Source of the DNA: Mastigias papua
Taxonomy: Eukaryota > Cnidaria > Scyphozoa > Rhizostomeae > Mastigiidae
DNA length: 64,000 nucleotides
Assembly (NCBI GenBank): GCA_964019165.1
Contig: OZ025276.1
Coordinates: 1,922,001 to 1,986,000, forward strand
Direction: 5' to 3'
The notes under the pieces are model-generated. The model ran no database searches. It was not told the DNA's origin and was given only the letters and a program-made list of their open reading frames with translations. Positions 2,860-62,955 of the stretch are shown here, piece by piece. Position numbers and translations under genes: made by a program. The stretch's first letter is position 1. Every line of letters starts with the position of its first letter.

Positions 2860-3396
2860 TTATAGATAGACTTCAACACTATTATGGAATAGCAATTAGA
2901 AGTGCTGTTGGTAATCTAGAGGAAATGAAAAAGCTATCCATGCAAGTCTTTTTCATGTTGCTTCCTCAGCAAATAACTTATGGCATGACCACTGTCCTAC
3001 ACGTAAAGGACAGCTGGTGCTCATTTCAATTGGATAAAGTTAATAATACCCAAACCTACAGGCCTGGTAAAGGTATTCCATTAGAAGTTATTAAACATAT
3101 ACAACCACTTTTCCAAGACCTCAGTTCTGATTCCCTTTTAAGCAAATGTTTGCATTGTAGGACACAAAATCAAAATGAGTCCTTAAATTGCATAATGTGG
3201 AACAGACTTCCAAAAATAACATATGTATGATTTGAATAACTAAAGCTCGGAGTGTATGATGCTGTTGCATCATTCAATATAGGTGCAAAGAGCATTATCA
3301 AACTATTGGAAGCTGTTGGGGTAGAGCCAGGAAAATATGCTACCATTGGATGTAGGCTACTGAACAAGAGACGCCTTCTCAATGCAAAGAAATAAA
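2860..3396 (+). pseudogene. Kolobok-like (Mutator-like domain) transposase, C-terminal fragment
   Basis: The frame reads through HYYGIAIRSAVGNLEEMKK, then the acidic block NQNESLN followed by MWNRLPK, which is the catalytic-glutamate region of the animal transposase family Pfam calls Mutator-like (PF20700). I believe this corresponds to Repbase Kolobok. A stop at 3228-3230 precedes the still recognisable VYDAVASFNIGAKSI and LNKRRLLNAKK motifs, which remain in the same frame. The N-terminal DGTW and DGDS aspartate motifs are absent. The copy is cut at 3446 by the duplication edge. Confidence 0.8.
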
Positions 3397-3446
3397 ATAG
3401 TGCAGAAACAAACCAGAGGTGAAGGACTCTTCAGGGGTTAAAGAAG

Positions 3447-6400
3447 AGACAGTTGGGCCGCCTTCTTTATGCTTGATATGTTGTCAGTCACTTCTGGTTA
3501 GCTCTTAGTTTTTCCCACACACTTATTGTATGCTGGAGCTAAGATGTTATTCAAATTATTCCTTGGATTATTGGAGTGTAATAGCTCTCTTTCCCGTTTG
3601 GTTTTCTTACAGTATTTTGAGGAAAGTACTATATGAATTCTCTCTGAAACCGTGAGGGGCGTTTCATATTACTATCAGTCACTAAAGCTGATGCCTTCCT
3701 TATTCTCAGTAGAACACTTAGTACTCTGAATCGCTGGTAAATTTATAGTTAAAAGTGGAAAGTTTTATACAGATATTTTGTATGTACTACTTTGTTGATA
3801 GTTTGATGTATAGTACTGTGCGTTTTCCTGTTGGTCTTTCTTCATTTATTTACACTGATATTTTGTTCTACATTAGGTTTGTAGTCAACACACTTAAGTA
3901 ACTTAATTGCAAGACTTTATTCAGTATAGTACTCTACTGGTTGCCTATGTATTTACAACAGACTAACAATCTTTATCTCCAAGATTAATCGTTCTATTCA
4001 ATATAGATTTCTGTGTTATTTTGGAGGAATCAGCCTATGGTTGCTTTAGTCCTAACTCTCCGTTTCATGGCAAACCAGCTCCCATTCATCCTAAGATTAT
4101 TTGTTATAAAGACCATTAGTGATTTCTATTCGTCATTCTGCACATGATAATATGGTTTAACTGGATCAGGTAGTATTAGATAACAATGATTTGTATTGTT
4201 TACACTTGATTCCTGGAGCCCGGTCTTCAAGCCCGCTGCCCAGTTAACAGTATTGTTTGTAATCAAATGTTATGAGGGATTTAATGTGAATGAGTATTAT
4301 GTATAAAAGGTTATGCCACATTGATACACAATTTCTGAGTTTCAATTCATTTTTGACTAGCACACTTATAGGAATATTCTTTAGCTGTTATGAACTTAAA
4401 TTATGAAGCATCTCTATGCCTTGGGATTGTATATTGCCTACTTGAATGCCTCAAGGTAGCTATTATAGGAGTTTGAAAGATATTACTGGGTGTGCCTAGA
4501 TGATAATGGTATTCATACATTTGAATTGATGTCCTTGAATGAAACATGTACCAATATAGTGCTTGATTGTCTGCCTGTGGGATTTTTGTCACTAGCTTAT
4601 TTCACTTTGAGATATCAGTTGTCACCACTACCATTACTACCTTTGATATTTCATTCTGTTTATGATGATATGTTGTTAAAGTTGTGTATTAGTTATAGCG
4701 AGCAACCTTATTTGTATTGTAATCAATTGCCACATCAAGCCCCCCCTGTCAAGTACAGCTATGATAATAAAGTTGTTGTTATGATGCAAGCTCTATATTG
4801 TATCATTCATTGATAGGATGTACAGCTTTATGTGGTTGACAGGAGGTTAGGACTCATGTGATTTTGGTCCATACTATTGTTACTGTCGAGTTTGCTCTAG
4901 GATTACAGGTCACTATTATTTCAGTTTTGTACACTTATGGAGCAGTCATTAAGTATCTGGGGGGGGGGTGGGGTGAGGGTTGAGGCACATGATAAAATAG
5001 ATTCAACAATTTTGTTCCCCAGTTGGACATGCAAAAATATTCTAGAGCCCCAGATTAAAAACTTTGTGGAGTCCAACACTTAATTCTTGTTATTGCTTTT
5101 ATTACATCAGTCATTTTTTCCTGGATATATTAGTTAGAAAGAGCATAGGTAATAGTATATGTGACTTTGTTCCACCACAAGTTGATATGCAGTATTGTAG
5201 GATTACTAAGAGGTTATGAGTCACTTATCTACATGATCTATGCACCTTATTTTGGAGTCTTCTCAGATACTGGAAGTTTTTACAACTAAATATAGTACCT
5301 CTGGATAAATTATATGGAAGCTTTGATAAGTTACTTGACTGCAACCATCTATATGATGCCAGGGTTAAGGTATGTTTCTACGTTGTACACCCCCCCCCCA
5401 CAACCACCACCACCACCATAAGTACCTCTAATGCTTGAAACCAGACTTTGTGATTTCAGGCTCTATACTATATCTCATTCATTGCCTTTACTTCTTTATA
5501 TGTAGACTATGAGGAAATGATGGCCTATTACCAAGCAATAGTCTTTTATTGTTATGAACTTGAAGTATAGGTCCTTTCAGGTATTGTAAGTAAATTCTGT
5601 CTAATTTATTGGGTCTTATTATGCAGTAAAGCAATTGGACAAGATTAATAGATAAAACCAGACAGAGTTTGCAGTCATACCTCTCATTTGATGTGACATG
5701 CTCTATGGTCTACGAAGTGTTTACATTATACAGCAACATTGTTATATAAGACTCATTACATTAGGATTGACTCATGCAGGAGATATTATATGATGTATTT
5801 CCATTTATGCCTCATTGCACATACCACGTTTAACAAGTATATGCTTAGTTCATGTAATAGAGACTAGCTTAGTACTGATAGCCCGCTAGACGCGGGCTCC
5901 CCTACCCCAGTTCAAAAGTGGGAGATTAGCCTTGGAAAGACTAACGCAGTGCCCCCATCCAAGCTGCATGGTCCGCATTGTCAATGAGCATGGATGAAAA
6001 AAGCTCGCATAGGATCAGGAGAGAATGACATCATGGGCCTCTGCATTGGAGCATGTGACATCCGGCTTTGCAATGGAGAAATCAACAACAATTTGCGAGA
6101 AAAAATTGTGCAAAAATGCTCGGATACCTGCGCTAGGCTATGGGGCTTTCGGCATTCATCTTCATCTTCTACAGCCCCATAGCCTAGCTCAGGTATCCAA
6201 GCATTTTTGCACTATTTTTTCTCGCAAATTGTTGTTGATTTCTCCATTGCAAAGCCGGATGTCACATGCTCCAATGCAGAGGCCCATGACGTCATTCTCT
6301 CCTGATCCTATGCGAGCTTTTTTCATCCATGCTCATTGACAATGCGGACCATGCAGCTTGGATGGGGGCACTGCGTTAGTCTTTCCAAGGCTAATCTCCC

Positions 6401-40394: not shown

Positions 40395-40672
40395 TTCAAA
40401 AGTCCTAGGGGCCACTTTGCAATTTTGTACTCTGCGCTCATCTCTCATCCCCCTCTCCCCTTAAACAATGTTGGTTTTTGGAAGGAGTATATATGATAAC
40501 GGACAAATTTTCCATGTGCAATAGCATCAAGTGTCTCCTCCATCAGCCACCATTGTTCCTGGGGGAGGGGGTTGCCTGTATGGTGTAAATGTAAGGAAGT
40601 TCAGAGGAATATGGTTTGTTTTACTTTTTCCGTAAGTATTGCAAGGACTTTTGTCGACTGTTGTCTGCTATC
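40395..40672 (+). mobile_element. MITE, about 275 bp (copy 1)
   Basis: This copy shares over 90% of its sequence by eye with 48028-48300. Ends carry AAAAGTCCT and its complement AGGACTTTT (GGACTTTTGTCGACTGTTG on the right). It has no coding capacity. A mariner-type origin is possible but unproven. Confidence 0.75.
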
Positions 40673-41072
40673 AAAGTTGTGCTATAGATACTACTGAGCT
40701 GCAATCAGGTCGGAACATGGGGTTTTTGGGGGTGCTGAGTGTGATGGTGTGAAAAGTTTTCCCATAGGTCTACCCCGTGATGTCATACCAACGTCATGGT
40801 GTAGGTTTTATTGTCCTTGCCTCCTTAAAGTGCAGATAAAGGCACGTTTGCATATAGTAGTTCACATTTAAGTTGTGTTTAGCAAACTACAAGAGTGTAT
40901 GCTCTATACGACACAAAAACAAGGGGAGTTTGAATAATGTGGTGCACACAGCAAAGCACCAAGGAGGTAGCCTCGTAATCATGCAGTTCACTGTGGCTTC
41001 TAAAACGCTTTCATAATCGGTTGCCCCTGGCAGCAAAATTCGACCATAATGGTTCTCAAAGAGTGAGGTGTC
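40673..41072. other. Unassigned stretch 5' of the Tc1-like transposase
   Basis: Nothing recognisable; presumably contains the left end of the Tc1-like element, whose inverted repeats I could not pair. Confidence 0.3.
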
Positions 41073-42152
41073 ATGGCGAAATATGGTAAGATAACAGATT
41101 ACAAAAAAGCTTACGTTACCTTATTGCAACAGGAGGGTAAGGTGTCGCTTTGTCAGATTGCTACACTATGTAACATCTCTAAGTCTAGTGTCAATCACAT
41201 CTCTAAAGTGGGTATGGAGTGTAAACTGCCTAAAAAACGGACTGGTAGACCTCCAATACTCAACAGAAGAGAGAAGGATCGCTTTCTGAGAAAGTGTAAA
41301 TGTATGAGAGAACAAAATCCAACCTTGACAGTAGGGGCTATTGCAATGGAGTGTGAACTCCATCATGTCAGTACTAAGACGTTGTGTAGACTTCTCAACC
41401 AGTCTGTGTATAAGTATGTTCGGCCAAGGAGAAAAGGCATCCTCACAGCCAGTGACAAAAGGAAACGGGTTGCGTATGCAGTTAAGGCTGTAAAACATAC
41501 GACTCCAGCTTTCTGGGCAGAAGATGTTCTGCTGTACTTAGATGCAATCTCATTTGTCCACACATGAAATCCCTATGAGGATGCATTGGCACCAGCCGCC
41601 AGGGTGTGGAGAACGCCTGGTGAAGGTCTTGAGCTAACAGCAAATGGGAGGAAAGATCTCAGGGGTGGAAATATTTGTCACTATGTAGTAGGCATTTCTT
41701 TTGGGGGAGGAACAGTACTGGTTGAGGAGTATACGACAATGAACGGAAAATACTTGTCGGACTTTATCGACACAAGTTTGCATAAACTACTTATTGATTG
41801 GGCTGCTGCAAAAGGAAAGGATAAATTGCTTTTTCTTCAAGATAATGACCCGAGCCAAAACAGCGTGAAAGCAAAAGAAGCACTAAACAATATAGTGGCA
41901 GAGGTCGTTAAAAGTCTGGCAAGGTCCCCAGAATTAAACCCCATAGAGATTGTCTTTCATAATGTTAAAAGGAAGCACAGGCAAGATGCCTTAGATAATA
42001 GGATAGTAAATGAAGATGTAATTGCATTTAAGCATAGACTTGTGCACACAATGTCTACTTATGACAAAGGAATCATAGATAAAACAATAAGTAGCATGTA
42101 TAACCGATTACTTACAATGACTAAACATAGAGGGTGCCGAACGAAGTATTAA
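41073..42152 (+). pseudogene. Tc1/mariner-type transposase with one in-frame stop
   Basis: The N-terminus has two helix-turn-helix-like parts (SLCQIATLCNISKSSVNHI and LTVGAIAMECELHHVSTKTL) joined by the GRPPIL GRPR-like hook. The catalytic domain shows YLDAISFVHT (first Asp; normally LDG), LFLQDNDPSQNS (second Asp) and SPELNPIEIVFHNVK (Glu), with about 34 residues between the last two as in Tc1 elements. A TGA at 41565-41567 splits an otherwise continuous frame to 42152. The stop suggests a recently dead copy. Terminal repeats were not identified. Confidence 0.9.
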
Positions 42153-42499
42153 CTATGTTCGTGCACTTGGATACTCTTATGTAAAACTGTACACAACTTA
42201 TTTAGGACAGAGAAGATGCCTACAAATGTAAATGCTGTAACACCTACATAATACTTAGGGACTCTAATGATAGCAGAAGGGGCTCTGAGAGGCAGGGGGC
42301 TCAATACCCCCATGGCTAGTCGTTCTCATAAGTAGTATATACGTAGAGTTCTTGTCGATACTAAACCAAATACTCCATAGTTTTAAGTCTTTTCTAGGTT
42401 CCTTACCAACATGACCAATCATAGTACATATGGAGAAGATGCTGAAACCTTGAGTATTTCAAAGGAAACCGTGGGCAAGCAACTTTCTGCTGATCATAC
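42153..42499. other. Unassigned stretch 3' of the Tc1-like gene
   Basis: No feature supported. Confidence 0.3.
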
Positions 42500-45400
42500 G
42501 GTGGGTCACTGCCCGAAATTTCGTAAAAAAGTGATTCTTGAAACGTGATGTTAAGTGTTAGTTTAGGATCCTATGTCGAGGGCTATGGGGTGTAATAGTG
42601 GAAATTCAGTGATTAAGATGTTGTTTTGGTAGATTTGAAATTGGTACCCTAGTCCTTATAGCTAAAATTTCCATTGCCAATACCCTATTTATTATAGTTT
42701 GTTTCTTGGTAACCTATTATGTCACAATACACCTCTTGGTATGGGTCGAACCGTCATTTTGTGCTCTTTCTTGTCGTAGTCAGTTCTGCTTCATTGTGTC
42801 CATGGTATCTTTGTATTTTGTCCTCTTCCATTGGTTTGAAAACAATACATTTCTTTGGTATTATAATCAAGTTTGTTCTGATTGGACCATTTGCCAGCAT
42901 CGTGGCACTCATTGGCTGCATTCTGTCACGTGGCTGGTAGAATCAGCTGTTGATCTCTCCCTTGATAGCCGATTGATTACCCAGTCAGTAGTATCAGTTT
43001 GCTTTTCAATCAAATCGCCTATAGTCTGTTGTGTTCTGTAACTTTTACTTCGACTCATGGGCAAGCCAAAGTTTTGTGTATCGAAGCCGTACGTTGGGAG
43101 GAGAAAGAATAGAAATTTACGACGAAATGTGAAGAGATCTGAGGGGGAAGAGTAACGAAATTGTGTTCAGCAACTGGAAGCAAATTCGACGCATTTGGGG
43201 TAACGGAAGAGCTCTTTTCAAAGACTTCAGCGGAGATGCAAATGACTTTGAATGATGCAAGTGACTCATTTTTTATCATTCAACTTTCTTGTCTGCAAAT
43301 GTTATTTGATAAAGTTGGTTGCCCAAACTGTGGACTTATTGGGACTTTGATGTTTGATGTCCTTTACAGCCTGTCATATGGATTGTCTGTAAAAATCAGA
43401 CTCCAATGTTCCAACTGCAATGAGTTTTGTATCGAGGATTTTATGTGCAGCAGACTTGGGAAATCTGCCAGTTCAAGAGCCCCATTCGAAATTAATCTTA
43501 GATCAGTTCTCGCCTTTAGAGGCATTGGATGTGGCTTTTCTGCATTGAAAGACTGGTGTGACACAATGAACATGCCTAGTTGTATGACCTATGATATCTG
43601 TGCTGAGAGTCATTCAAAGATACAGGAAGCAAGTAAGCAAACTTCTGCAAACTACTTGAAACAACAAGAGAAAATGTACAATCAGCATACAAGGACATTG
43701 GTGTTTTTCCAGATGAACAGGGTATACTGAACATTGCTGTGTCTTTTGATGGCACATGGCAACGAAGAGGACACTCTTCACATAAGTGTGTGGCAGCTGT
43801 AAGTGATTTGCTAACAGGTCTTCCACTAGATTATGAAGTCTTATCAAATTTTTGCTTGAAATGCAAGCTTGAAGAAGGGGGTAAGTCATCAGATGAATGG
43901 AAGGAGCAACATTCAAGAAAATGTTTGAAAAACTTTGATGGCTCATCCAATGCCATGGAGGCAGAATGTGCCATAAGGATGTGGAAGAGGTCCATAGATA
44001 AAAATGGAATGAAGTACACTACTATGCTGTGTGATGGAGACAGCACGTCTTTTGATGTTGCAGGGAGGAAGTATATGGGGAAGATACTGTAATTGAAAAA
44101 GAAGACTGTATCAATCATATGTCAAAAAGAATGGGTACAGCTCTCAGGAAGTTGATTACAGAAGCAAAATCCCAAGGATTATCAATCTCAGGAAAGGGAA
44201 AGCTAACACAGCCAAAGATTTTGAAAATACAAAACTATTATGGTCGTGCCATAAAATCATTTTGACAACATAGAGGTTTTGACGAAGCGTACATTTGCCA
44301 TTTTATTGCACCTGTCTTCTACAGACAAATTTCCAAAATATCAGCAATGCCCACCAGGTGAAAAGTCATGGTGTTTTTGGCAAAGAGCACTTGCCAAGAA
44401 TGAAACACCAAGTACCCACAAAAAACACGAAACTATATCACCAGAGGTTGGAAAGTGATTAGTGCCCATTGTCCAAAGATTAGCTAATGAGGAATTGCTA
44501 AAGAGATGCCAGAGAAATAAAACTCAGAATCCAAATGAGTCTTTGCATCAGCTAATTTGGAAAGTGGCTCCTAAGACTGTCTACACTGGTAGAAATACAG
44601 TAGAAACTGCAGTTGCACTTGCACTCTGCCAGTTTTCCATGGGAAAAGGTTTTCGGCATATACTTTGTCAAATGGCTGGATTTGAAGCTGGAATCTTCTT
44701 AGACTTAGGCAGCATGAAGGCCAACAAAAGAAGGTTACAGAAAGCTGAAACAGCATCATCCTACAAGGCCAGGCAAAGAAGGAAGCAGCTCAAATTCAGC
44801 AAAACTGGTAAAGAACATAAATCAAGAGATGAAGAAGGAACTACATATGCAGCTGGTGCCTTTGATTAAGTGTATAGTAAGACTTAGACCCTTATACTGT
44901 AGGAAAAAAGAAAAAAAACTAAGGCTATTCATAGCTATTGAGGGTATTTACTTAAAGGTCCCTATTCTAGTCAAAGTCCTAGAGGTACTAGCTGATCATT
45001 ATCTTCGTAATGTTAAAAGCTGTTTTCTCAACTATAGTACTTTAACTGAGTGCACTCGAGGCAATGCACGCCATTTATTCATGTCGTCTCCAAAATTGAA
45101 TGTCTTTATATCATTTTGAAGATGAAAGAGTAGTCTATGCAATAGTGGATTGCATTTTGTGATATCATTAATGACAGAAACTTGTGAACCCTCAAAAGTA
45201 TTCAGATAACTTGCAAAATAACAAATTTGAACAATATTCTGCTGTTTGAACAATCTATCAAACCTATCAAAAAACTGATTCCTTCATTGCATTCTACACT
45301 GTATATGGATTCATTTGATATATAGGAAAGCAATATATGTTGTAGTGGGAGGAAATGGGGTATCACATCCATGGGGCACTATTTCACACTTATACCCTTG

Positions 45401-45537
45401 TTTCTATAGCAACCAAGTAGGATATGTAAATGTAGAGTCAATTTCCGGAATCTCTGTGTAATTTTACATTACACAGTAGAGTTTTGGCTTTGTACCACAA
45501 ACATATCAACAAATAGTTTTTCGGGCAGTGACCCTCC
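42500..45537 (+). mobile_element. Kolobok-like DNA transposon, 3.04 kb
   Basis: Inverted ends GGTGGGTCACTGCCCGAAA (42500) and, reversed, GGAGGGTCACTGCCCGAAA (ending at 45537) enclose a degraded transposase. The right end is followed by TTAA, the duplication expected of Kolobok; the left flank reads atac, so the target duplication is not intact. Coding sequence occupies 43057-44869, and 44870-45537 is noncoding. Confidence 0.72.
43057..44869 (+). pseudogene. Kolobok-like (Mutator-like domain) transposase, frameshifted
   Basis: It starts MGKPKFCVSKPYVGRRKNRN. After a frameshift come the zinc-ligand-like pairs CPNCG..CSNC and the segment AFRGIGCGFSALKDWCDTMNMP. The catalytic parts are SFDGTWQRRGHSSH (Asp), LCDGDSTSFD (Asp) and QNPNESLHQLIWKVAPK (Glu). 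CLKC, DGSSNAMEAECAIRMW, INHMSKRMGTALRKL and the end TTYAAGAFD fit the family order. Frameshifts lie near 43145, 43695 and 44060, with stops near 44263 and 44458. Overall length is near full size. Confidence 0.87.
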
Positions 45538-45541
45538 TTAA

Positions 45542-45998
45542 CAGTTTACCCTTGAAAATCTACTAAAAAGGCCATTTCACGTGAAATAAGGGGGAAACTG
45601 ACTACTGTACCAGATATACACAATTGTTGTACATCTGGCAGTGAATTTTTATTATTTTTTTCATATACATATTTTGCAGTAATGAAGGAAAACTGCACGG
45701 TTTACAAAATTTTTCTATCAAAAGTCACATGATCTGAGTCTTAAGTCTTCAGAAGTGTAAACCGTCAAGAAATGTCGATTTTTCTGGTACTACAGCATGT
45801 TCTACATGCTTTTAAGAGCTCCATCAGATGTACACAAACTGTGTACATCCTTTACATAGTTTAAAAACGTTAAATACATATTGTAAGAAGAAATATAGAG
45901 CATTTTTCAAGTGTAAACTGTATTTGGGATTAATTGATAAATGAATGAAAACTGAAAACTGAAACTGAAACTGTAAACCATGTAAACTGTAGCATAAA
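45542..45998. other. Unassigned stretch between Kolobok-like element and Rep locus
   Basis: AT-rich with several 'tgtacat' and 'aaactgaaactg' short repeats; no gene is supported. Confidence 0.35.
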
Positions 45999-46044
45999 TG
46001 ACAACAAGACACTGTGGGATATAGCCCGCAGTGTGTTATTGTCA
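45999..46044. promoter_or_regulatory. Stem-loop 69 bp past the Rep-like gene
   Basis: Arms of 20 nt (45999-46018 and 46025-46044) pair at 17 positions around the loop ATATAG; the inner stem is ACACTGTGGG / CCCGCAGTGT. HUH-Rep replicons nick at or next to such hairpins. A role as origin or element end is inference. Confidence 0.55.
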
Positions 46045-46112
46045 AGGCGAATTTATACAATAGCACAGATTCCATAAAGACTGTGGGGGGCTATTATACC
46101 TACTACTACCTA

Positions 46113-47387
46113 TCATTCTACCATGTCGAGCATAAGGTGTGCAAACCAAGTGCTGCATGGTGTCACTGTCTTTTGAGAAGAAATGGGAATCTGATGGAAA
46201 AAGTGAAACTTTCTCCATCTGACATCCATTATTTCTGTCTCTCTCTCATCAATACTGGAGCCTTTGATAAAGAATATAGGAGACTTGGACGTGGCAAAAA
46301 CTGGAGTGTCGCTGGTAAACTCAATATCCCTAGCATAGGTGGTGTTAGGTGCAGCGTAATGGACGATGTGGCCTTCTAACAACAATAGCATGTCATTCCA
46401 AGGTAAGATAGCTGTAGTATACCGAAAGTCATTCAAAACGATACCTTCTTTGTCTTCAACCCCTAGCCACGCATACGAACAAGTCGCAGGTGAAAGGAAA
46501 GTGTTTATAAATAACATGTAAGGGGTCAAGAATGAATGTTTTGACACAGTTCGCTGGACCCGTAATATATATATTACGGCCCTTCCCCCGACCCATGGTG
46601 AGTAATGTAATAATGACATCAGCAGATATGCTTTGCTGAATGCCATTGCTACAGAGAAGCTGCTTGGCACACTGCAACCACTCACCTTGACAGACACACG
46701 CATTATTATAGGCCTTTTGAGGAGATCAGTGCGGGACATTGACCTCCTGTCCAACGTTTGCTGCGCCCTTTCCATTGACCATACAGAATGTATGAGTTCG
46801 TTCACTCTTTTTTCACCTCAATTCAATACAAACTCATACAGCCTGCTGTCACCATTCGTTTTTCTCTTTTTTGCCAGGGCAAGGAGATGTAACTTGGAGT
46901 CAATGCTGTAGGAGACAATGATGTTGGAGACCTCCAAGGTACTAAGCCGTTTCTTCTGTGCATCTTTGCCTTTCTTATGCGACGAACGGTTCTGTATTGC
47001 CGAAGATGTCTTAGGGACAGCACTTGCAGCTGGGTGATTCTCGCTTCTCAGACCCTGGGTATCCTGCTTTGTCATATACTGGTAAGCTGGATGATACCCA
47101 GAGTGACCTGAGACATTAACAACAATATGTCCATGCTCCTGGAGATATTTCTTAACTTTCTTCCAGCTCTGAAGCTTGCTCAAAAGAACACACAAATGAA
47201 AATGGACACCCACATCCATATGATGTTCCATGCAACATGCCCATTGAATGATGAGAGCTGTTGTTACAGCTTGGAAAGCAGTTGTTACAATTTTTGCGAA
47301 GGACTCACGATTGAACCTTACTGTATCTGCTTGACTATATGTTAGCAGATACACTTTTCTAACTTCATTGTTATTTAGTTGAGCCAT
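46113..47387 (-). pseudogene. Rep-like protein: HUH endonuclease plus SF3 helicase (degraded, possible endogenous viral element)
   Basis: The minus frame from ATG at 47387 has VYLLTYSQAD (Rep motif I-like), GVHFHLCVLL (the His-hydrophobic-His metal site) and YQYMTKQD (motif III with Tyr and Lys). A Lys-rich linker follows. After a TGA at 46818-46820 in the same frame comes a superfamily-3-type ATPase: GPANCVKT (Walker A; Val where Gly is usual), WLGVEDKEGIVLNDFR (Walker B region), DTPVFATSKSP (motif C region, sensor Asn not obvious) and VRWRKFHFFHQIP. The Walker A part is in another frame, implying two compensating shifts near 46680 and 46500. It would be an initiator of rolling-circle replication, as in CRESS-DNA viruses and parvoviruses. 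Defects make it inactive. Confidence 0.85.
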
Positions 47388-47393
47388 TATGAT

Positions 47394-47545
47394 ATTACTA
47401 TCTCTGTGATTTTCTTGTCGTTCTCTGTAAGCAAGTGCTACTTTTGCTACATGATGAATAATTGGACTATTATGTCTGTGATTTTATTGTCGTTCTCTGT
47501 AGCCAACTGCTACGTATGTGCCACGAGGAATAATTTGACTATTCC
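47394..47545. repeat. Imperfect tandem repeat upstream of the Rep-like gene
   Basis: Two units of about 74-79 bp (from 47399 and from 47473) share CTGTGATTTT(C/A)TTGTCGTTCTCTGTA, GTGCTAC/CTGCTAC and GAATAATT(G/T)GACTATT. They start within 12 bp of the Rep-like start codon, where iterons would sit in a Rep replicon. Confidence 0.7.
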
Positions 47546-48027
47546 CGCCGTGTGCTTATTGTTTGAAAACAGAAGGTTTCCACACACTTTAACGGTAATG
47601 GACATATGCAGTGTAAAAATGTATAAATGATAATGTGCATCTAGATAATGATGATGAGTATTAGTAACAGAGGATTGTGTGGTAGCCTCATTTGCAATTC
47701 TGTACACACACTTACCAAAAAGGGCATCACTCATGTATATAGAGAGCTAATTTGCTCCCAATTTTGTACATATTCTGAGAACATGTTCCATGATGCTTGA
47801 TCTACCAATACACTTGTGTTCCAGCAATAATCCTTTCGTCGTATTATCGCTTTAGGCAGGTACACTGCCACAGAGGCAAACTGATAGATCCCCACATGAT
47901 ATGACATCACAGAGGTGACTTACAACATTTTTATCATCGCTATCGTGTTCAGCACCATCGATCACCCCTTGACCGACCAATATAGTGCAGGTATAATGTG
48001 TTTTGAACCATTTTGCCTCCAGACAAT
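47546..48027. other. Unassigned stretch
   Basis: No recognisable feature; may hold the other end of the Rep-bearing element. Confidence 0.3.
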
Positions 48028-48300
48028 AGTGGACAAAAGTCCTGGGACACTTTGCAATGGTTTACTCTGCGCTCATCTCTCATCCCCCTCCTCCCCTTAA
48101 ACAATGTTGGTTTTTGGAAGGAGTATATATGATAACGGAAAAATGTCCCATGTGCAATAGCGTCAAGTGTCTCCTCCATCAGCCAACATTGTTCCTGGGG
48201 GGAGGGGGTTGCCTGTAAGGTGTAAAAGTAAGGAAGGTCAGAGGAATATGGTTTGTTTTACTTTTTCCGTAAGTGTCCCAAGGACTTTTGTCAACTATTG
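48028..48300 (+). mobile_element. MITE, about 275 bp (copy 2)
   Basis: The ends CAATAGTGGACAAAAGTCC and the complement of CAATAGTTGACAAAAGTCC form clear terminal inverted repeats. The interior matches 40395-40672 in the same orientation, including the 'gataacgga' and 'gggggagggggttgcctgta' blocks. The right end is followed by TA, but the left flank reads ga. Confidence 0.82.
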
Positions 48301-48419
48301 TACGCTAGGACTCTGTATCAATTTGCTTCAAAGGTCTATTAATGTAAAGATCCTTGAAAATTTTTATTTTAGTCCTTGAAAAGTCCTTGAAAACTCCTTG
48401 AATTTGCTTACCAAAATCC

Positions 48420-52469: not shown

Positions 52470-54206
52470 TTAACCGTTATGAATCATCATAGGTTTAAAA
52501 GAGTCCTCTGGGTGAGTAATCTTTGGTTCTGGCAGATCAGCTGCAGGTATAACGTCAGAGTTTGACCTAGATCGCATAGTTTCATCACCAACATAACTGT
52601 CTGTCTGAAGGTCCGAGTCGGCGAGGTCCAGCGAAGGAGGGCGCACATCTGGGGGCTCAACAGGCCGCTGCGAAGGGTCGCAATAAAGTTTCAGCCTGTT
52701 GGCGTGAACCGGTACTAAGACGGGTCGATTGTCTAAGGTATGTAAACAAAAATGTACTGGCGACAATTTTGACACAATTCGATAAGGTCCGTGATAGTTG
52801 TGGGACAGTTTCTTGCAGAGGCCTTTGCACAACTCTGGGGTATACACCCATACTTTCGTGCTGATTTCGAAAGGAACAGGTCCGGCGGATTTATCATATT
52901 GCTCCTTCATTCGTTGTTGTGCGAGCTGCGTATTTGAGTCAATGATGCATTGCGTGTCTTTGAGGTTTTGCATGATCCGAACACGATGTACTGAAATGGA
53001 TGCCGAAAGATTGGCAGAAGGCATTACCAACGAAACATCAATAGGCAAACGAGGTTCGCGCCTATATAAGAGGTAGAATGGGGACTCACGAGTAGTCACG
53101 TTGGGTGAAACCCGATAAGCGAATAGAATCATGGGTAAGTGTTGGTCCCAGTCCTTTTGATGCGTGCTGACATACATTGATAATCCTTCCGCAAGAGTGC
53201 TGTTGAAACGCTCAACAAGTCCGTCCGTCTGGGGATGATGCACGGTGGTTTGTGTCTTTCGAGTATCCATACTTTTACAAACTTCCTTCATGACTGATGA
53301 GAGAAAATTGGAGCCTCGATCCGATAGCAAGGTACAAGGTGAACCATGACGTGCAAGAATTTCATTGACTAATATGTTGGCAACACGAGGGGCTTCACTT
53401 GAGGGTACAGCAAATGCTTTGGGCCAACGAGTATAGTAATCCGAAAATACCAAATTATAACGATTGCCATCATTTGTTGCAGGGAACGGGCCTAGTGCAT
53501 CAACAGCAACACGATCAAATGCACCATCTACTGGAATCGGCAACAAAGGAGCTTTACGCTTACCATGAGGGACCTTTGTCATGGCATAATCAATGCAAGA
53601 ATAGCACCAGTGTTCAATATCCTTGAACATTCCATTCCAGAAATAACGCATGCGCACTTTTTCATATGTTTTCAATGTGCTCAGGTGACCAGCAGTGGGG
53701 TCATCATGGCAGGCCACAAGTATTTCATGGCGAAGGAAGGCAGGAATAACAACTTGAGTAACGAGGGTTTGGGCTCTATGTTTCCCTGGTGTCCACAAGT
53801 GACAGAGAATTCCATTTTTGTCTAAATAGTACAAATCAATAGTAAGCAGCAATGAACGAGCTTTATTATCACAGATAGGCAAGGTGGAAAACTCAAGATA
53901 CTGGATTATGTCAGACAAATCTTTATCTTGGCATTGTAACAAATGCAGGTGCTGAACAGACGGCACACAATCAGCGATAGGGGTAACAGGAAGAGAAACA
54001 GGGATAGTACTGGCAGTAATGACAGACGATACCGGGACAGCGGAGGGCACCATTGACTCATTCAGATACGTTCTACAAGATAAAGCATCAGCATTCCCGT
54101 TAACAGAACCGGTGTGATGAAGAATTTCGATATCGTATTGTTGTAATTGCAAAGCCCATCAAGCCAATCGGCCTGTAGGATCTTTAACATTCATTAACCA
54201 CGAAAG
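52470..54206 (-). pseudogene. Gypsy 1 pol, RNase H end and integrase
   Basis: The frame begins with LSWLMNVKDPTGRLA, a stop, WALQLQQYDIEILHHTGSVNGNADALS (end of RNase H; cited cores LQQYDIEI and NADALS). The integrase zinc motif follows (H..GHLSTLKTYEKVR, CYSC), then the catalytic core AVDALGPFP, LLSDRGSNFLS and HPQTDGLVERFNSTL with the D-D-E residues, and a GPYRI C-terminal module. It is open from 54152 to the stop at 52470. It is separated from its RT by the insertion of gypsy 2. Confidence 0.92.
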
Positions 54207-54451: not shown

Positions 54452-57400
54452 ATGCCAGAAATAGGAGATCAGGAACGAGAAGCACAACTGCCTAAACCTG
54501 TGGCTATCCAGTTACCACCTGTAAAGGAATTTGATCCAAAGGGAGACCCTTCTACGGTAAGTCAGCGATGGGAGAAGTGGAACAAATCTTTTATTTATTT
54601 CCTCAATGCAACAGGCATTCACAATGATAACCAAAAGAGAGCTACACTCTTACATTTGGTAGGAGAAGAAGTACAAGACATCTTTGAAATGCTAGGTGAG
54701 GTAGGCACAACATATGACGAAGCAATAACTAAGTTAGATAGCCACTTCGACATTAAAAGAAATATTCCGTATGAAAGATGTGTATTCCATGAAACAGAAC
54801 AAGAGGTAGGAGAATCTATTGATTCATATGTCACTAGGCTGAAAAAGTTGACTCTTTACTGTGAATATGAAGCTGCTACTGAAGATAAAATCAGAGACCA
54901 AGTAATTGCCAAATGTAAATCAAGTAAATTGAGAAAAAGATTACTACAAGAGCCAGACCTAACAGTAGAAAAAGTTCTCAGACTTGGTAAGCTTATGGAA
55001 CAATCAGATCACCAAACAAGGCAAATAGAACAAAACAATGGAATAGGAGTATCAGCTGAAACAAAGCAGGACTCATTTTCAGAACTAAATAGAATAAAAT
55101 CAGATAAATGGCAACACAAAGGTAAACATAACAGCAATAGTAAGCCAAAATACAATCATACCAGACAGTGTGGAAGATGTGGCATGAAAAATCACACAAG
55201 TAACAACTGTAGAATTACTAAAGGAAAGAAATGTATGAAATGTGGCATCATGGGACACTTTGCTAAATTTTGCAAAACAAAATTACCAAAGAAAACAGAA
55301 ATTCATCAAACCAAAGCAAATGAGATTCAACCAGAGAACTCAAGTGATGAAGAATCTTTTGTATTCAGGATAGGGGACAGTGCAAGACCTGTATACCCAA
55401 TTTTTGTGGAAAATACTAAAATCAATATGCTCATAGACAGTGGCTCAACACTTAATATACTAGATGAAACAACATATAGAACACTGAGTAAAATTCCTAA
55501 ACTGCAGAATAGCACAGCCAAAATATTTACCTATTCAGGACAAGTTCCATTGAAGTTAAAAGGCACATTCATTGCAACAGTTCGAGCATGTGGAAACGCA
55601 ACCCAAGCAAAATTCTATGTCACAGAAGGATCAAATGGTGCAATATTAGGACAAAAGACAGCAGAGACATTAAATATTTTAAGAGTAGGTCCACCTGCAG
55701 ATTCAAAATATGTATCAGTCAATGAAATCAATCAAGCTAAGGATATCAAGCAACAGGTACATCCAGAAATTCAACAAATACTTGACAACAACACTGAAGT
55801 ATTTCAAGGTATGGGAAAATTTAAAGACTTCCAATTACAACTCCACATTGATAAGAATGTCACTCCAGTCCAGCAACCAATAAGAAGACTACCTTATCAC
55901 ACCAGAAAGAAAGTTTCTGAGGAATTAAAAAGACTTATTGCAAATGACTGTATTGAGAAAGTGAAAGGCCCAAGTACATGGATTAATCCAATTGTAGTCG
56001 TACCGAAACCAAATGGGAAGATCAGACTCTGTCTAGACATGAGAAGAGCTAATGAAGCTATCATTAGGGAAAGGCATCAAATTCCCAAAGTTGAGGAAAT
56101 ACTTCCAGAGCTACACAATGCCAAATATTTTTCAAAGATAGATTTGAAAGAGGGATACCACCAAATTGAATTAGCAGAAGAATCTAGACACATTACAACA
56201 TTCCTAACACATGAAGGCTGCTATCAATCAAAACGTCTTGTATATGGTGTCAATTCAGCATTTGAACAATTCCAGAAAATAATTGAACAAACAATAGCAG
56301 ACTGTCCAGGCACAAGATCAATCTCAGATGACATCCTAATATGGGCTTCTAGTATTGGTGAAATGGCTCAACGTCTTGATACACTCTTCAAGAAGCTCCA
56401 TGCAAAGAACTTGAAGATCAACCTAACTAAGTGTGTTTTTGGAACCACAAAATTAACTTTTGCTGGATACTGCTTAACAGACACTGGGACTCATCCAGAC
56501 AAATCCAAAGTAGATGCTGTAAAAAACACAGCCACACCAACAAATGTCACTGAAGTAAGAAGTTTCTTAGGGTTAGTCAACTTTTGTTCCCAATTTATCA
56601 AAGGCTATGCAACACTAACAGAGCCATTAAGACAACTCACAAAGAAAGGGGCGCCATTTGTATGGAAAGAACAGCAACAGAAGAGCTTTAACAAGTTAAA
56701 AGAATGTTTAACAGAAGCAGATACTATGGCTTATTATCAACCAAAAGCAGAAACTAAGGTTATAGTCGATGCATCACCGGTAGGACTCGGAGCAATCCTA
56801 ACACAAAGACAAAAAGATGGATCATTTAAGCCAGTAGCATATGCATCACATGCACTAAGTTCCACAGAACAGAGATATTCACAAACAGAAAGGGAAGGCC
56901 TTGCTGCCTTCTGGGCAACACAGAAGTTTCATTATTACCTATATGATAGAGAATTCACAATAGTCACTGACCATAAGCCACTTGAAAAACTATTGTCATC
57001 CAGAGGTAGCCCTACACCAAGACTACAGAGATGGTTACTCAAAATGCAACCATACAAGTATACCATTCAGTATGAACCAGGACAGACTAACGCATCTGAT
57101 GTTTTATCACGTTCTCCACTACCAGCAACAGACCAGCTAAGTAATGATACAGAACATTTTGTTAACTCACTAGTATATGATGCTATTCCTAAAGCGGTTA
57201 CAATAGAAGAAATCCAGGCAACTTCCAGGAATGATGAACTACTCAGACAAGTAAAGAAGCAAATTGAAACAGAGAAATGGCTGAAAGACCCAACATTTAA
57301 ACCATATTACCATACGAGGAGAGACCTGTGGATATCAGATGATATCATACTCAAAGGCTCAAAGCTAGTCATCCCTATGGCACTCAGAGAAAGAGTACTC

Positions 57401-58462
57401 AGCACTGCACACCAACACCATTTAGGGATTGTCAAAACAAAAGGACTATTAAGAGAAAAAGTTTGGTGGCCAGGAATAGACAAAGATGTAGAGCAAATGA
57501 TCAAAGTATGTCATGCATGTCAAGTAACAGGTTCTGGGAAAGTTAAATTTGAACCACTTGAAACAACCAAATTACCAGCTACAAACTGGCACACTGTAGC
57601 ACTAGACATTCAAGGACCCTATCCAACCAAAGATTATTTAATAGCTCTAATAGATTACCGATCAAGATATCCAGTTGTAATACGAGTTCAGAGTGTCAAC
57701 ACTACAACCGTAATTAAAGCACTAGACCTGATTTTCTCTATGTTCGGGTATGTTCACCAAGTAGTTGCTGACAATGGGAAACAGTTCATTTCTGACGAGT
57801 TCAAAAACTATTTGAAACACAATGGCATACAAGTGAGAAATGTAACACCTTACTCTCCATGGGTTAATGGAGAAGTTGAAAGGTTCAACAGATCTCTAAA
57901 GAAAGCAAATCAAGCAGCATATGCTGAGAATAAGGATTGGAGAGAAGAGCTCAACAAGTTTTTACTTCTCTATAGAACAACACCTCATGCAACGACAGGC
58001 CAATGCCCAGCAACTGTATTTTTTGGACGAAACATTAAGAACAATATTCCAGAATACATTCCTAAAGAGCCACATGACACTGAATTAGACAAGAGAGACA
58101 GAGAAATGAAGGAGAAAATGAAAGATAGAGCAGATAAAGTACGAAAGTCAAAAGTTAATGAAATTAAAGAAGGAGACACAGTCTTAGTAAAGAAGTTGTG
58201 GAAGAAACACAAATTATCACCTAACTGGTTGAATGAGAGATTCAAAGTTTTAAAAGTTTACAAGAAAAGTGCATTGATAGAGAATAAAGATGGAAACAAA
58301 TACTACAGAAACAAAGCGCATCTGAAGATATACCATGAAAGAGAATTTGACAAAGAAAGACATCTCACAAAAGAACAGGTACAGAACGAAGACCAAGATG
58401 ACGAAAGTAAGTATGAACTACCGATTGGGACTGAAGGAAATGTCACAGGATCAATAAGTTAA
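54452..58462 (+). CDS. Gag-pol polyprotein of gypsy 2, 1336 aa, intact
   Basis: One frame encodes Gag (about 1-230), two CCHC knuckles (CGRCGMKNHTSNNC, CMKCGIMGHFAKFC; about 237-275), protease (MLIDSGSTLNILDE, about 330), RT (VVVPKPNGKIRLCLDMRRAN; ISDDILIW at about 630), RNase H (VIVDASPVGLGAIL; VTDHKPLEKLL) and integrase. The integrase has the HHLGIVKTKGLLREKVWWPG...CHAC zinc motif and D-D-E in ALDIQGPY, VADNGKQF and NGEVERFN. The SDD box in place of YVDD is usual in Mag-like Ty3/gypsy elements, so it is not a defect. Gag and pol share one frame. The start is the first ATG after the 5' LTR and leader. It encodes all enzymes for reverse transcription and integration. Confidence 0.97.
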   Translation: MPEIGDQEREAQLPKPVAIQLPPVKEFDPKGDPSTVSQRWEKWNKSFIYFLNATGIHNDNQKRATLLHLVGEEVQDIFEMLGEVGTTYDEAITKLDSHFDIKRNIPYERCVFHETEQEVGESIDSYVTRLKKLTLYCEYEAATEDKIRDQVIAKCKSSKLRKRLLQEPDLTVEKVLRLGKLMEQSDHQTRQIEQNNGIGVSAETKQDSFSELNRIKSDKWQHKGKHNSNSKPKYNHTRQCGRCGMKNHTSNNCRITKGKKCMKCGIMGHFAKFCKTKLPKKTEIHQTKANEIQPENSSDEESFVFRIGDSARPVYPIFVENTKINMLIDSGSTLNILDETTYRTLSKIPKLQNSTAKIFTYSGQVPLKLKGTFIATVRACGNATQAKFYVTEGSNGAILGQKTAETLNILRVGPPADSKYVSVNEINQAKDIKQQVHPEIQQILDNNTEVFQGMGKFKDFQLQLHIDKNVTPVQQPIRRLPYHTRKKVSEELKRLIANDCIEKVKGPSTWINPIVVVPKPNGKIRLCLDMRRANEAIIRERHQIPKVEEILPELHNAKYFSKIDLKEGYHQIELAEESRHITTFLTHEGCYQSKRLVYGVNSAFEQFQKIIEQTIADCPGTRSISDDILIWASSIGEMAQRLDTLFKKLHAKNLKINLTKCVFGTTKLTFAGYCLTDTGTHPDKSKVDAVKNTATPTNVTEVRSFLGLVNFCSQFIKGYATLTEPLRQLTKKGAPFVWKEQQQKSFNKLKECLTEADTMAYYQPKAETKVIVDASPVGLGAILTQRQKDGSFKPVAYASHALSSTEQRYSQTEREGLAAFWATQKFHYYLYDREFTIVTDHKPLEKLLSSRGSPTPRLQRWLLKMQPYKYTIQYEPGQTNASDVLSRSPLPATDQLSNDTEHFVNSLVYDAIPKAVTIEEIQATSRNDELLRQVKKQIETEKWLKDPTFKPYYHTRRDLWISDDIILKGSKLVIPMALRERVLSTAHQHHLGIVKTKGLLREKVWWPGIDKDVEQMIKVCHACQVTGSGKVKFEPLETTKLPATNWHTVALDIQGPYPTKDYLIALIDYRSRYPVVIRVQSVNTTTVIKALDLIFSMFGYVHQVVADNGKQFISDEFKNYLKHNGIQVRNVTPYSPWVNGEVERFNRSLKKANQAAYAENKDWREELNKFLLLYRTTPHATTGQCPATVFFGRNIKNNIPEYIPKEPHDTELDKRDREMKEKMKDRADKVRKSKVNEIKEGDTVLVKKLWKKHKLSPNWLNERFKVLKVYKKSALIENKDGNKYYRNKAHLKIYHEREFDKERHLTKEQVQNEDQDDESKYELPIGTEGNVTGSIS

Positions 58463-59118: not shown

Positions 59119-59958
59119 CATGGTCTGTGTGTACAACAAACTTGGCACCAAACAGATAAGGCCTATAACATTTAATTCCATCGACAACAGCAAGAGCTTC
59201 ACGCTCAGTAGTACTATAACATTTTTCTGCCACGTTTAGCTCACGACCACCATAAGAAATAACATGCTCTCTACCTTCAATTGTTTGACTTAAAATGTAC
59301 CCTAAAGCTGTCTGACTGGCATCTGTATCGAGATGGAAAGGCTTTTCAAAGTCCGGGTATGAAAGAACAGGTGGGGAGCACAACCAGTTTTTTAAGGGAA
59401 TTAAATGCAGTTGCACATTCAGGACTCCAAGCAAATGTAATATCTTTCCTTGTCAAACGATTTAAAGGGGAAGCATTCTTTGCAAACTCTTTAACAAACT
59501 GATGGTAGTAATTACAGAGTCCCAAGAAACTGCGCACATCTTTGACAGATTTAGGCACAGGAAAAGATTTTGCTGTGCTGATTTTATCAGGGTCTGGTAG
59601 AATACCTTTTGGTGACACAACAAATTCGAGGAACTTCACAGATGACTGAGCAAAATGGCACTTTGAAGGCTTCATTTTTACATTAGCTTGACGGAGACAA
59701 TCGAAAATGAGGCTTAATCGCGAAAGATGTTCGTCAAATGTACGTGAAAAGATTATAATATCATCGATATAGATGAGACACACCTTCCATTCAAGACCAT
59801 GGAGAACTCTAGCCATCAAGCGCTGAAATTGTGGAGGAACATTTGTCAAGCCAAAACTGAGCACACGAAATTGGTAGAGACCGGCGTGAGAAATAAAAGC
59901 AGTCTTTTTCTTCGAATCCGGATGCATTACAACTTGGTGATAACCGGATTGCAAGTCT
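59119..59958 (-). pseudogene. Gypsy 1 pol, RT C-terminal half and RNase H
   Basis: From the left edge of the foldback element the frame resumes with LQSGYHQVVMHPDSKKKTAF and has LIYIDDIIIFS (the YIDD catalytic box) and VRSFLGLCNYYHQFV. A shift near 59404 leads to RNase H: LDTDASQTALGYIL, YSTTEREALAVV, FVVHTDHGS. Gypsy 2 is inserted exactly after HTDHGS. Normal order and motifs are present; the frameshift and two insertions inactivate it. Confidence 0.92.
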
Positions 59959-62955
59959 CTATATACTAAGATGCCTATATGATAATTTATGCCAAACCAA
60001 TCAGATTGCTCAGATTTGTACCAAGTGACCTGATTCCACCTACACGATCTCCTCCCAGGGTATTTGTCCCATGGCCCCCAAATGTCTGTTGAGGGTAGCC
60101 ATTTGGGTCTATCACTGACATAAGAAGAGATCTGATTTTTATAAGTTTTTTTCGCTGAGTTATTCAACTTTTTTCCCATCTCCACTCACAGCAATACGGT
60201 TGCTCCTCCCTGCTGGACCTCGTGTTGTCAGTTTTGCGAGCGGTCCAGTAGGACTAAGTAACTGTGTGTGTTATCGCGAGGAGACTTTGGTTGCAGTTCT
60301 TCCAGGTAAGCCAGCTCTATTTTCCTGAAATGGTTTGAGTTAAGAATTCCTGTATTTCCTTTGTCCATTTCATCTGTATTCTACTGTTGCCAGCCATTTA
60401 TTTCCATATCTTTCAACGAGATTCAGCCACCTTCCCTCAAGTGAATTACCGCCATGACAGTTCTTCTCAAAGGTGTTCGATTCTGTGTACTAAATCACCG
60501 TGCTTTTACTGCTAACTTGTGAAAAGATATTCAACATATGTTTGACTTTGTATTCGGTGCTAGATTATGACAGGTTGTTTGCTTTTCATGCCTATTTAGA
60601 TGACATGGAATGCCGTCCGTGCTTGCTGCTTTCAGTTGGCAAGGTTTTGATTAGGACTACCGTATAGTTGTCGTGTGACTTGGAGGAGAGTTTCGTTGCT
60701 CTGCCTCCAGTTTAATGCTTTTTCGCTTGATTTCATTCGCTAAGGTATCCTACGTTTCTTACTACATTGTGATGAAATGATTATGGTATGTGTACTGTTG
60801 TATTCCTTGCTAGCTTGGAATTTATCCATTGCTTTTACCACATGTATGAATGACATAGGATACGGTTGTGTTGGGGATAAAGTCTTGGTATGTGGAATGC
60901 TTTCACTGAAGTGTGTATAGGGCTATTGCTGAATTTGGTTACCCTAATTTTGCAGTGTTTACTTTCACTCTTTACCTTTGTCATAGTGTTTACTGTGAAA
61001 TGCGAGGGGATTCCCAAGTTCATCTCATGATCGCAGATACCTGTTGTCCTTTGTTTTGGATTTAATTGCGGTCTTTTGCGGGTGATTCCATAACTTTGCT
61101 TCAGGGCAATAAGATCAAGGCAGTTCCCCTCAGTTTTGCTTGATTTTCTCTTCTAACTTACCGTTTTGTTACCGCAGAAGTATGGTTATGATATTGAGGA
61201 GGTATTTAATGCAATATTTGCTGACGTACTAGGAGCTTTTAGCTTGCTCTTGATTCTTAGTATATGCACGTGAGTTGGATGTTAGAATGTCTCAAGAGTT
61301 TGGGCACTTTGCTTACATTTGAGATATTGCCCTTACAGTCGAATATACTCCTTGATTTTATCATACACGTTTTACAGGCAAACACTAAGATGTTACCAAC
61401 TTTATTCTCAGCTCAGCAACTCTCTTTTTATTTTGTTTTCACTGTATTTACAGTAGGCTTCCTAGTTATTTCCACTATAGGTGGTAGAGTTATTCTGGTC
61501 AAGTCAAATTTAAGGGGTTCCACTATACTGAATGTTCTTCTGTTGTGACACAGTTCCCCTTCTTTCTGAGATCATTTGTTATAAATGCCATTACCCAATT
61601 CCATAGATCATTCTGCACGTGATGATATACTCTTAAGGGATGAATTAGTACAAGATATGACCATCATGTTTATTTCCTAGACTTAATTTATGAAGCCCCT
61701 TGCCACCCCCCCCCCTGAGGTAATGCCTTCGTTTGACATCTGAGTTGATGATACAGGATATATATTATTACTCATTTCAAACAATTACTGACTTCCATAG
61801 ATCATTCTGCATATGATATTATAGTTTTATTAGAGATGAATTAGTACTAGATAGCAATATTTGATTTATGGGGCCACTTTCCCCTATCCAACTACACTTA
61901 TTGGTTGAAATCTGACTTTCACATGGTTGTAACAGATAATTTAGTACTGGATAGCTGCATTATTTGTTTTGTATAGCCATAACCTATGGACTCCCCCCAA
62001 GAACTTTGGCTGATATCTAATATGATTCACGCTGCTCAATCATGGGTTTTACAATCTGTTATATATTATATAAATGTGTGATATAGGACTACTAAGCAAT
62101 ATTCTTTTGTTTTATCACCTTGAACTACCAAGTCCTATCACAGTTTCCATTTGTATAACACCTACGTTTATGGATCAGACTTGATTGTGTACCTCTGTGG
62201 ACAGGATTAGTGGTCACCTATATAATAACAGAACCACTGATACCTGCCAATTCATGTGCTATATTGTATATGGTATAACATCGTAAAATAAGTCCCAAGA
62301 CTCCTTAAGTTAGAGTTGAGTGAAGCAGGAGACAATATGTCATGTAGTTTCATTAGTGCCTCATTGTAGAGAGCATTTTAAACAATTCTGTGCATTCAAC
62401 AATTCGTATAATAGAGACTAGCTTGGTACTGATAGCCTGCTACACGCGGGCTTCCCTAGCCCCAGTTCAAAAGTTGCATATTAGCCTTGGAAAGACTAAC
62501 GCTGTGCCCCCATGAAAGTTGCTTGGTCTGGTCGCATAGGATCACAAGGAGGTGACGTCATGGGCCTCTGCGATGGAGCACGTGACTTTCGGCCTTGCAT
62601 TGTACAAATCGAAGAAAAGTGCGAGAAAAACTTGTGCAAAAAATGCTTGGATACCTGCGCTAGGCTATGGGGCTTCTTGATTTTCTTCCTTTCCCTTTAC
62701 TGGCCTGTAGCCTAGCGCAGGTATCCAAGCATTTTTTGCACAATTTTTTCTCGCAATTTTCTTCGATTTGCACAATGCAAGGCCGAAAGTCACATGCTCC
62801 ATCGCAGAGGCCCATGACATCACCTTCTCGTGATCCTATGCGACCAGACCAAGCAACTGTCATGGGGGCACAGCGTTAGTCTGTCCAAGGCTAATATGCA
62901 ACTTTTGAACTGGGGCTAGGGAGGCCCGCATGTAGCGGGCTATCAGTACTAAGCT
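59959..62955 (+). mobile_element. Complete foldback-ended element, 2997 bp, inserted in gypsy 1
   Basis: It starts CTATATACTAAGATGCC and ends in the hairpin 62415-62955 (...CAGTACTAAGCT). It is flanked by AGTCT on both sides (59954-59958 and 62956-62960); removal of the element plus one AGTCT restores the RT frame through STLD-LQSGYHQ. No ORF longer than about 95 codons exists, so it is non-autonomous. A conserved exon-like block near 60210-60305 ends in a GT donor. A C9 run lies near 61708. Partial relatives lie at 1-2313, 3447-7220 and 8302-10614. The superfamily is unknown to me. Confidence 0.88.
60000..62414. other. Interior of the complete foldback-ended element: no gene seen
   Basis: Apart from the exon-like block near 60210-60305, the 2.4 kb holds only short, non-conserved frames and AT-rich sequence. 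Confidence 0.5.

Follow-up and report, generated by a model that had tools for sequence, protein, structure and literature searches.

The stretch of DNA analysed here, the window, spans 64,000 nucleotides of the Mastigias papua genome (contig OZ025276.1, positions 1,922,001 to 1,986,000), and it contains an old copy of a mobile element in which a rep gene, resembling those of CRESS (circular Rep-encoding single-stranded) DNA viruses, converges with a Tc1/mariner-type transposase gene between long terminal repeats of the same orientation. An earlier sequence-only reading of this DNA had centered on the decayed rep gene, with a stem-loop past its end and a pair of repeats beside its start; the element, including a nested insertion, is about five times longer than that feature. 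Its parts in the window are as follows (ORF, open reading frame; L035, a complete copy elsewhere in the genome).

40397-48302, minus (the sense strand of rep): whole element, old and split by a nested insertion, delimited by blastn with L035
48024-48300, minus: terminal repeat R1, 277 bp, with inverted ends CAATAGT..ACTATTG and a flanking TA at 48301-48302
47396-47467 and 47468-47539, no strand assigned: two 72-nt imperfect direct repeats beside the rep start, 81% identical
46818-47387, minus: HUH nuclease half of rep, a 189-residue ORF ending at an in-frame stop, recognized by motifs and a profile match
46113-46805, minus: helicase half of rep, with frame shifts around the Walker A motif GPANCVKT (46538-46561)
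45999-46044, no strand assigned: 46-bp stem-loop just beyond rep, which occurs in family A copies
45541-45990, no strand assigned: iteron array between the genes, a candidate Rep-binding origin severed by the nested insertion, with motif sites at 45982-45990, 45913-45921, 45757-45765, 45697-45705 and 45541-45549
42503-45534, no strand assigned: nested Mutator-like transposon (3 kb) interrupting the element, with inverted ends GGGCAGTGACCC and a Mutator ORF at 43161-43730
41073-42152, plus: Tc1/mariner-type transposase remnant, convergent to rep, with ORFs at 41073-41567 and 41586-42149
40397-40663, minus: terminal repeat R2, in the same orientation as R1, with its outer end truncated

The broken rep gene (46113-47387, minus strand) comprises a CRESS-type HUH nuclease and a superfamily 3 (SF3)-type helicase, the two halves sharing one frame and being split by a single stop at 46818-46820. 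All three Rep motifs named in the sequence-only reading reside in the nuclease ORF (LLTYSQ, VHFHLCV and YQYMTK), and the Walker A motif is likewise present, albeit in a different frame from the flanking helicase ORF, with the frame changing both before and after this stretch (raw frames with their stops, unrepaired); the gene is thus decayed as claimed. Profile searches lent partial support to the domain calls in that the nuclease half matched Pfam PF23343 (REP_ORF2-G2P) at E 3.8e-5 and 24.4 bits, under the 27.8-bit cut-off, and the helicase half alone yielded zero Pfam matches, but three of 10 relatives scanned passed the Parvo_NS1 cut-off of 20 bits (P0057 at 26.2, P0047 at 21.8 and P0064 at 20.6). 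Against PDB sequences, nothing matched the nuclease half, the helicase half gave a single weak, unrelated match, and P0057 gave weak matches.

The sequence-only reading had mentioned similar proteins in other invertebrates, and related proteins were found in other assemblies: a search of 5.8 billion proteins returned 13 relatives of the nuclease half and 81 of a longer relative, P0012, including a series of 416-477 residues. In an alignment of 22 relatives, the HUH histidines and the Walker A lysine are invariant, with the tyrosine and lysine of YxxK being near-invariant. PPV_E1_C was matched in three of the 10 relatives scanned, all below its cut-off, and P0016, the nearest intact relative, matched neither Parvo_NS1 nor PPV_E1_C at E 1. 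The structure of P0016, modelled with the alignment of its relatives, had adeno-associated virus (AAV) Rep68 as its top Foldseek match (E 1.4e-12), where a whole-chain TM score of 0.40 and a root-mean-square deviation of 18 mean that the match speaks for the domains and not for their arrangement; upon splitting the model by domain, good alignments were obtained with geminivirus Rep, AAV Rep40 and papillomavirus E1. Judging from motifs, alignment and predicted fold, these relatives are fusions of an HUH nuclease with an SF3-type helicase, in support of the original Rep call. Phage records yielded no relative at 1e-5, and PHROGs gave one weak match (E 0.074) among 5 proteins.

A rep search of the jellyfish's own genome (346.8 Mb, 172 contigs), with 150 of 913 candidates scored, returned 21 matches to the window's own family (family A, 68-100% identity), 128 to a second family (B, 48%) and L022 alone at 50%. 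The aligned family A loci share a sharp left edge, some 1044 bp ahead of the rep start. Complete copy L035 (5032 bp) is bounded by two directly oriented repeats of about 278 bp, with inverted ends of about 30 bp on both sides of each repeat, and encodes a Rep of 423 residues and a convergent transposase of 359 residues. Its positions 1-690, 820-2841 and 2919-5022 correspond to 48301-47611, 47612-45541 and 42499-40397 of the window at 91-93% identity (blastn), positions 691-819 being absent from the window copy; the transposase remnant is collinear with the L035 transposase, and its ORF at 41586-42149 matches DDE_3 at E 1.7e-7. Among family A copies read at both ends, six of seven are flanked by TA/TA and one by CA/CA; three further copies showed no right end within the fetched piece, L036 has lost its left end, and in the window copy the target duplication is unreadable on the R2 side because of the truncation. 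Four copies, 99.6-99.8% alike and with open rep frames, reside on four large contigs, and one young copy (L033/L043) sits inside a TACA microsatellite. With a catalytic spacing of DD34D in family A (L035) and DD34E in family B (L038), TA duplication and inverted ends, the element is, by the features tested, a Tc1/mariner-type transposon.

These data support a mobile element that is multicopy and has defined ends, and they partly bear out the earlier suggestion of an undescribed HUH-SF3 transposon, but not the ends that had been proposed for it, and the linked DDE transposase had gone unconnected. Alignment of copies with their flanks revealed common ends; the stem-loop and the repeats thought to be 75 bp long are both internal, and the true ends are the repeats of about 280 bp with TA. 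The stem-loop itself is real, the stretch that holds it (45980-46070) folding better than any of 200 shuffled versions (z -3.2), and it is common to family A copies, although L013 and L015 (2 of 19 other copies) align in opposite register, L017 is without one arm and L014 has no row. We rejected it as a terminus or origin, since it is internal and adjoins a symmetric iteron array. The repeat pair is also genuine, with each repeat being 72 nt rather than 75 bp, and it recurs in other family A copies.

Family B is found mostly as tandem arrays. At least 126 units on 32 contigs were counted among the candidates scored, mostly 5045-5048 bp apart and on small contigs; each unit of about 5.05 kb carries one terminal repeat and mostly a 433-residue open rep frame, with some being shorter. 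All 12 sampled 600-bp pieces (8 contigs) were array, and six units of contig C114 differ by 0-2 substitutions between each other over about 3.5 kb. On contig C1 (23 Mb), a B dimer with three repeats has TA on both flanks. The B transposase matches DDE_3 (5.7e-17) and HTH_Tnp_Tc3_2, and resembles Sleeping Beauty and, more weakly, Mos1. A ribosomal DNA origin of the arrays was discarded, given that L038-L040 have no Rfam match at gathering score and that the long ORFs are rep and transposase. The arrays are compatible with circular forms, which may have given rise to them.

Loci of further families emerged when a distant relative served as the query, with 91 of 668 candidates scored. In families D (L067) and E (L066), both the rep and the transposase ORF look intact, the terminal repeats measure about 280 bp and each side is flanked by TA; the two repeats of E are identical (278/278), and those of D differ by one mismatch and one gap. 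Family G (L069) has its transposase in pieces, 298-bp repeats at 97% identity and TA/TA. In family C (L062), the rep ORF (1435-2811), whose Walker A is degenerate (SPADCAKT), converges with a transposase fragment and adjoins an intact-looking iteron array. In family F (L068), a dense short repeat, CATGTTTCC, follows rep.

The region between the two genes contains a candidate origin for Rep. The intergenic regions of families A, B, D and E give no blastn alignment except for two 24-28-bp stretches between A and E, and CGGTYTAC nonetheless occurs 3-6 times in each of them and is absent from the rest of these elements (17.2 kb). When one mismatch is tolerated, the sites fall into a common inverted layout: two inverted sites 60-61 bp apart form the centre, and 155-156 bp before it as well as 154-165 bp after it lies either a pair of outer sites or a lone one; the 73-bp palindrome of family B is the central pair itself. 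In family C, six copies of a different motif, CGCGTTAC, follow this order, with the paired sites spaced by 12, the gaps being 51 and the centre 62; the remaining 3.4 kb of the locus has none, and if one mismatch is allowed, additional sites appear at 65, 191, 205 and 286. The decayed family G copy retains a weaker array of seven sites with the six-base core ACGGTT, in which the paired sites are spaced by 10 and 12, the gaps measure 166 and 157, and the centre is 65 or 73. An inverted iteron array with conserved spacing is therefore evident in five of the seven families and fainter in a sixth. From its sequence, the array looks like a replication origin with candidate Rep-binding sites, and a conserved layout with a changed motif in a distant family is what may be expected of initiator sites coevolving with Rep.

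Rep and the transposase also seem to belong together. Between families A and B, the nonsynonymous divergence (dN) is 0.34-0.35 for rep and 0.40-0.44 for the transposase, with synonymous sites being saturated, and the rep ORF is open in all seven family A copies read. For relatives beyond this genome (the best 120 of 242 for the transposase), we took a contig size equal to that of a Rep hit as a proxy for the same contig; such sizes, including 4497 bp for P0021/P0098 and 6982 bp for P0028/P0105, were found for 6 of the 21 best contigs vs. 1 of 95 others among the relatives listed, although close assemblies may account for some of the equal sizes. Four rep/transposase pairs from this genome and three joined by this proxy make up seven pairs whose identities correlate at r 0.90, a value reached by 2 of 5040 permutations, true order included. 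These figures suggest that rep and the transposase diverge in step.

Given an element that has convergent genes, direct repeats, TA duplications, arrays and iterons, we surmise, with a probability of about 0.65, that it runs on two engines, Rep amplifying circles or concatemers with a single repeat and the transposase inserting the product at TA. Rep would bind the iterons, nick and unwind there, and replicate a circle with a single terminal repeat into head-to-tail concatemers; the transposase would then excise a unit whose limits are the outer ends of two consecutive repeats and paste repeat-core-repeat into TA, or else insert a dimer. Each cycle would renew the identity of the two repeats in the fashion of a long terminal repeat (LTR) element. 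Insertion from a single-repeat form predicts identical repeat pairs that diverge with age, and R1 and R2 show no substitution in three of seven family A copies, 4-8 differences in the other four and 18 in the window copy. In copy c5, R1 and R2 differ by 4 vs. at least 8 to the repeats of other copies, an excess of identity within the copy.

Several observations weigh against this two-engine model. We infer Rep-driven replication from anatomy, and no conserved nick sequence was recognized. The SF3 motif C of the relatives reads TSK or TAK at a place where an asparagine is expected. Family A has one extra site, at 630, off the common layout, and G an extra central site. An inverted pair at 58-62 bp arose in none of 3000 random sequences per family, but this test is post hoc, as the motif was chosen after the sequences were looked at, and the weight thus rests on the agreement between families. 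Family C yielded no terminal repeat, and in family F neither a transposase nor terminal repeats nor an iteron array were seen within 7 kb. For copies c10, c13 and c18, R1 and R2 differ by 6, 7 and 8 vs. 3, 7 and 6 for the closest repeats between copies, and LTR-like behaviour hence fits cleanly only for c5 and the identical pairs, the latter of which could also stem from gene conversion or recent common origin. Unequal crossing-over at direct repeats could build arrays without Rep. Lastly, the full 359-residue transposase ORF is present in one of five covered family A copies (L035), being altered in L032, L033, L036 and L037 (the fetched stretch ends too early to cover this gene in L031 and L034), and copies with an altered ORF would need transposase from elsewhere.

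Some of these points feed the chief rival, namely that a viral rep was acquired by a Tc1/mariner transposon and has ceased to replicate it, with the transposase alone moving the element and unequal crossing-over making the arrays. Transposase, inverted ends and TA duplications would suffice for movement, direct repeats are good substrates for crossing-over, and the repeats of some copies show no renewal at insertion. A mere passenger, however, would not be expected to stay open in family A copies in which the transposase ORF is altered, which is the reverse of the expected pattern; Rep is open and constrained between A and B and, within family A, exceeds the transposase in this respect; the two genes diverge in step; and five families retain a spaced iteron array, whose motif is changed in distant family C. 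We therefore regard the passenger explanation as unlikely, albeit deserving of serious consideration. More doubtful still is an integrating virus, in which these loci would be proviruses of RepE1-type cressviruses that use a transposase, with the capsid lost or supplied by another genome. A precedent comes from Buck et al. 2024 (PMC11071296), who report RepE1 cressviruses that have capsid genes and are integrated at high copy in sea anemones. Among ORFs of at least 120 residues in L066 and L067, none beyond rep and transposase exceeds 168 residues, the extra ones being of 126 and 168 residues antisense to the transposase and of 153 residues overlapping the rep start on the opposite strand (no search with capsid profiles or for a capsid fold was made), and tblastn with P0012, A2 and A3 found no relative in IMG/VR contigs, a collection that may be poor in animal viruses. 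The window copy, viewed alone, is a pseudogene with a few disruptions and could pass for a plain endogenous viral fragment, left by a single rep of a virus that landed there by chance and was split afterwards; we give this practically no credence, since the copies share ends, the outcome that the sequence-only reading had named as deciding against a chance viral insertion, and it is also contradicted by the TA duplications, the linkage to a transposase and the 21 matches scored for family A.

Elsewhere in the window, a long ORF at 54452-58462 has reverse transcriptase, RNase H and integrase domains, as in a polyprotein of the LTR-retrotransposon type, and there is a separate integrase ORF at 52470-54152 (minus) as well as an RVT_1 ORF at 59346-60185 (minus).

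Cut-and-paste transposons are generally considered reliant on the host's replication and repair for their copy number. If the two-engine model is true, an initiator and origin of its own would give such a transposon a direct means to multiply before integrating, mariner transposons would be linked with CRESS viruses and plasmids, and some high-copy 'endogenous cressviruses' could be recast as transposons; one genome would also harbor Rep/iteron pairs with more than one natural specificity. We speculate, at somewhat less than even odds, that the element represents a distinct class of eukaryotic mobile elements, combining a mariner transposase for TA with a CRESS/parvovirus-type Rep and a palindromic iteron origin, propagating as rolling-circle episomes with a single repeat, regenerating its repeats in LTR-like manner and forming concatemers that yield chromosomal or extrachromosomal arrays.

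With Tc1/mariner transposons, the element shares the DD34D/E transposase with HTH_Tnp_Tc3_2, inverted ends and TA duplication; it differs in having an HUH-SF3 rep, an iteron array and long direct terminal repeats, each with inverted ends. Helitrons have a two-tyrosine HUH nuclease and a Pif1-type (SF1) helicase, are not known to have inverted repeats or target duplication, and are excluded by the inverted ends, the TA duplication and the SF3-type helicase fold, in accord with the sequence-only reading. Replitrons, reportedly described by Craig in 2023 as eukaryotic transposons with a single-tyrosine HUH nuclease and without a helicase or DDE transposase, are excluded by the SF3-type helicase domain and the DDE transposase. 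Membership in Parvoviridae was dismissed as well, the ends being direct repeats with short inverted ends and TA rather than terminal hairpins, with no long further ORF. As for CRESS-DNA viruses (Cressdnaviricota), the HUH-SF3 fusion is present by motifs and predicted fold of relatives, whereas for a capsid gene the ORF lists of L066 and L067 cited above offer nothing further above 168 residues (no capsid profiles were run).

The Rep resembles the initiators of CRESS viruses and of parvoviruses and papillomaviruses, groups whose SF3 helicases are connected by Kazlauskas et al. 2019 (PMC6668415). RepE1 cressviruses (PMC11071296) likewise have an HUH-SF3 Rep with a papillomavirus-E1-like helicase and are high-copy in animal genomes; they are described as viruses with capsid genes, and the accessible text mentions no transposase. 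Repetitive NS1/E1-like elements of lower animals, namely DENSOV_HM of Hydra, PIVE of planarian and an acorn worm element with a capsid ORF and terminal hairpin (PMC3198968), are likened here by description and not by sequence, and no transposase is mentioned for them in the accessible portion of that paper. In searches of open-access papers, judged by title and opening of the abstract, no description of a mariner element with a Rep, an origin and direct terminal repeats was found, Repbase not included. The nearest precedent comes from the virus-like transposable elements of Liu et al. 2011 (PMC3198968), among them a geminivirus-like transposon of Tuber melanosporum. As far as the accessible portion goes, this truffle element differs in being fungal, in having 37-bp inverted repeats without obvious target duplication, and in that an origin, direct repeats and tandem arrays go unmentioned; what it has in common with the element of Mastigias papua is a Rep-like ORF and transposase ORFs between inverted terminal repeats, present in many copies.
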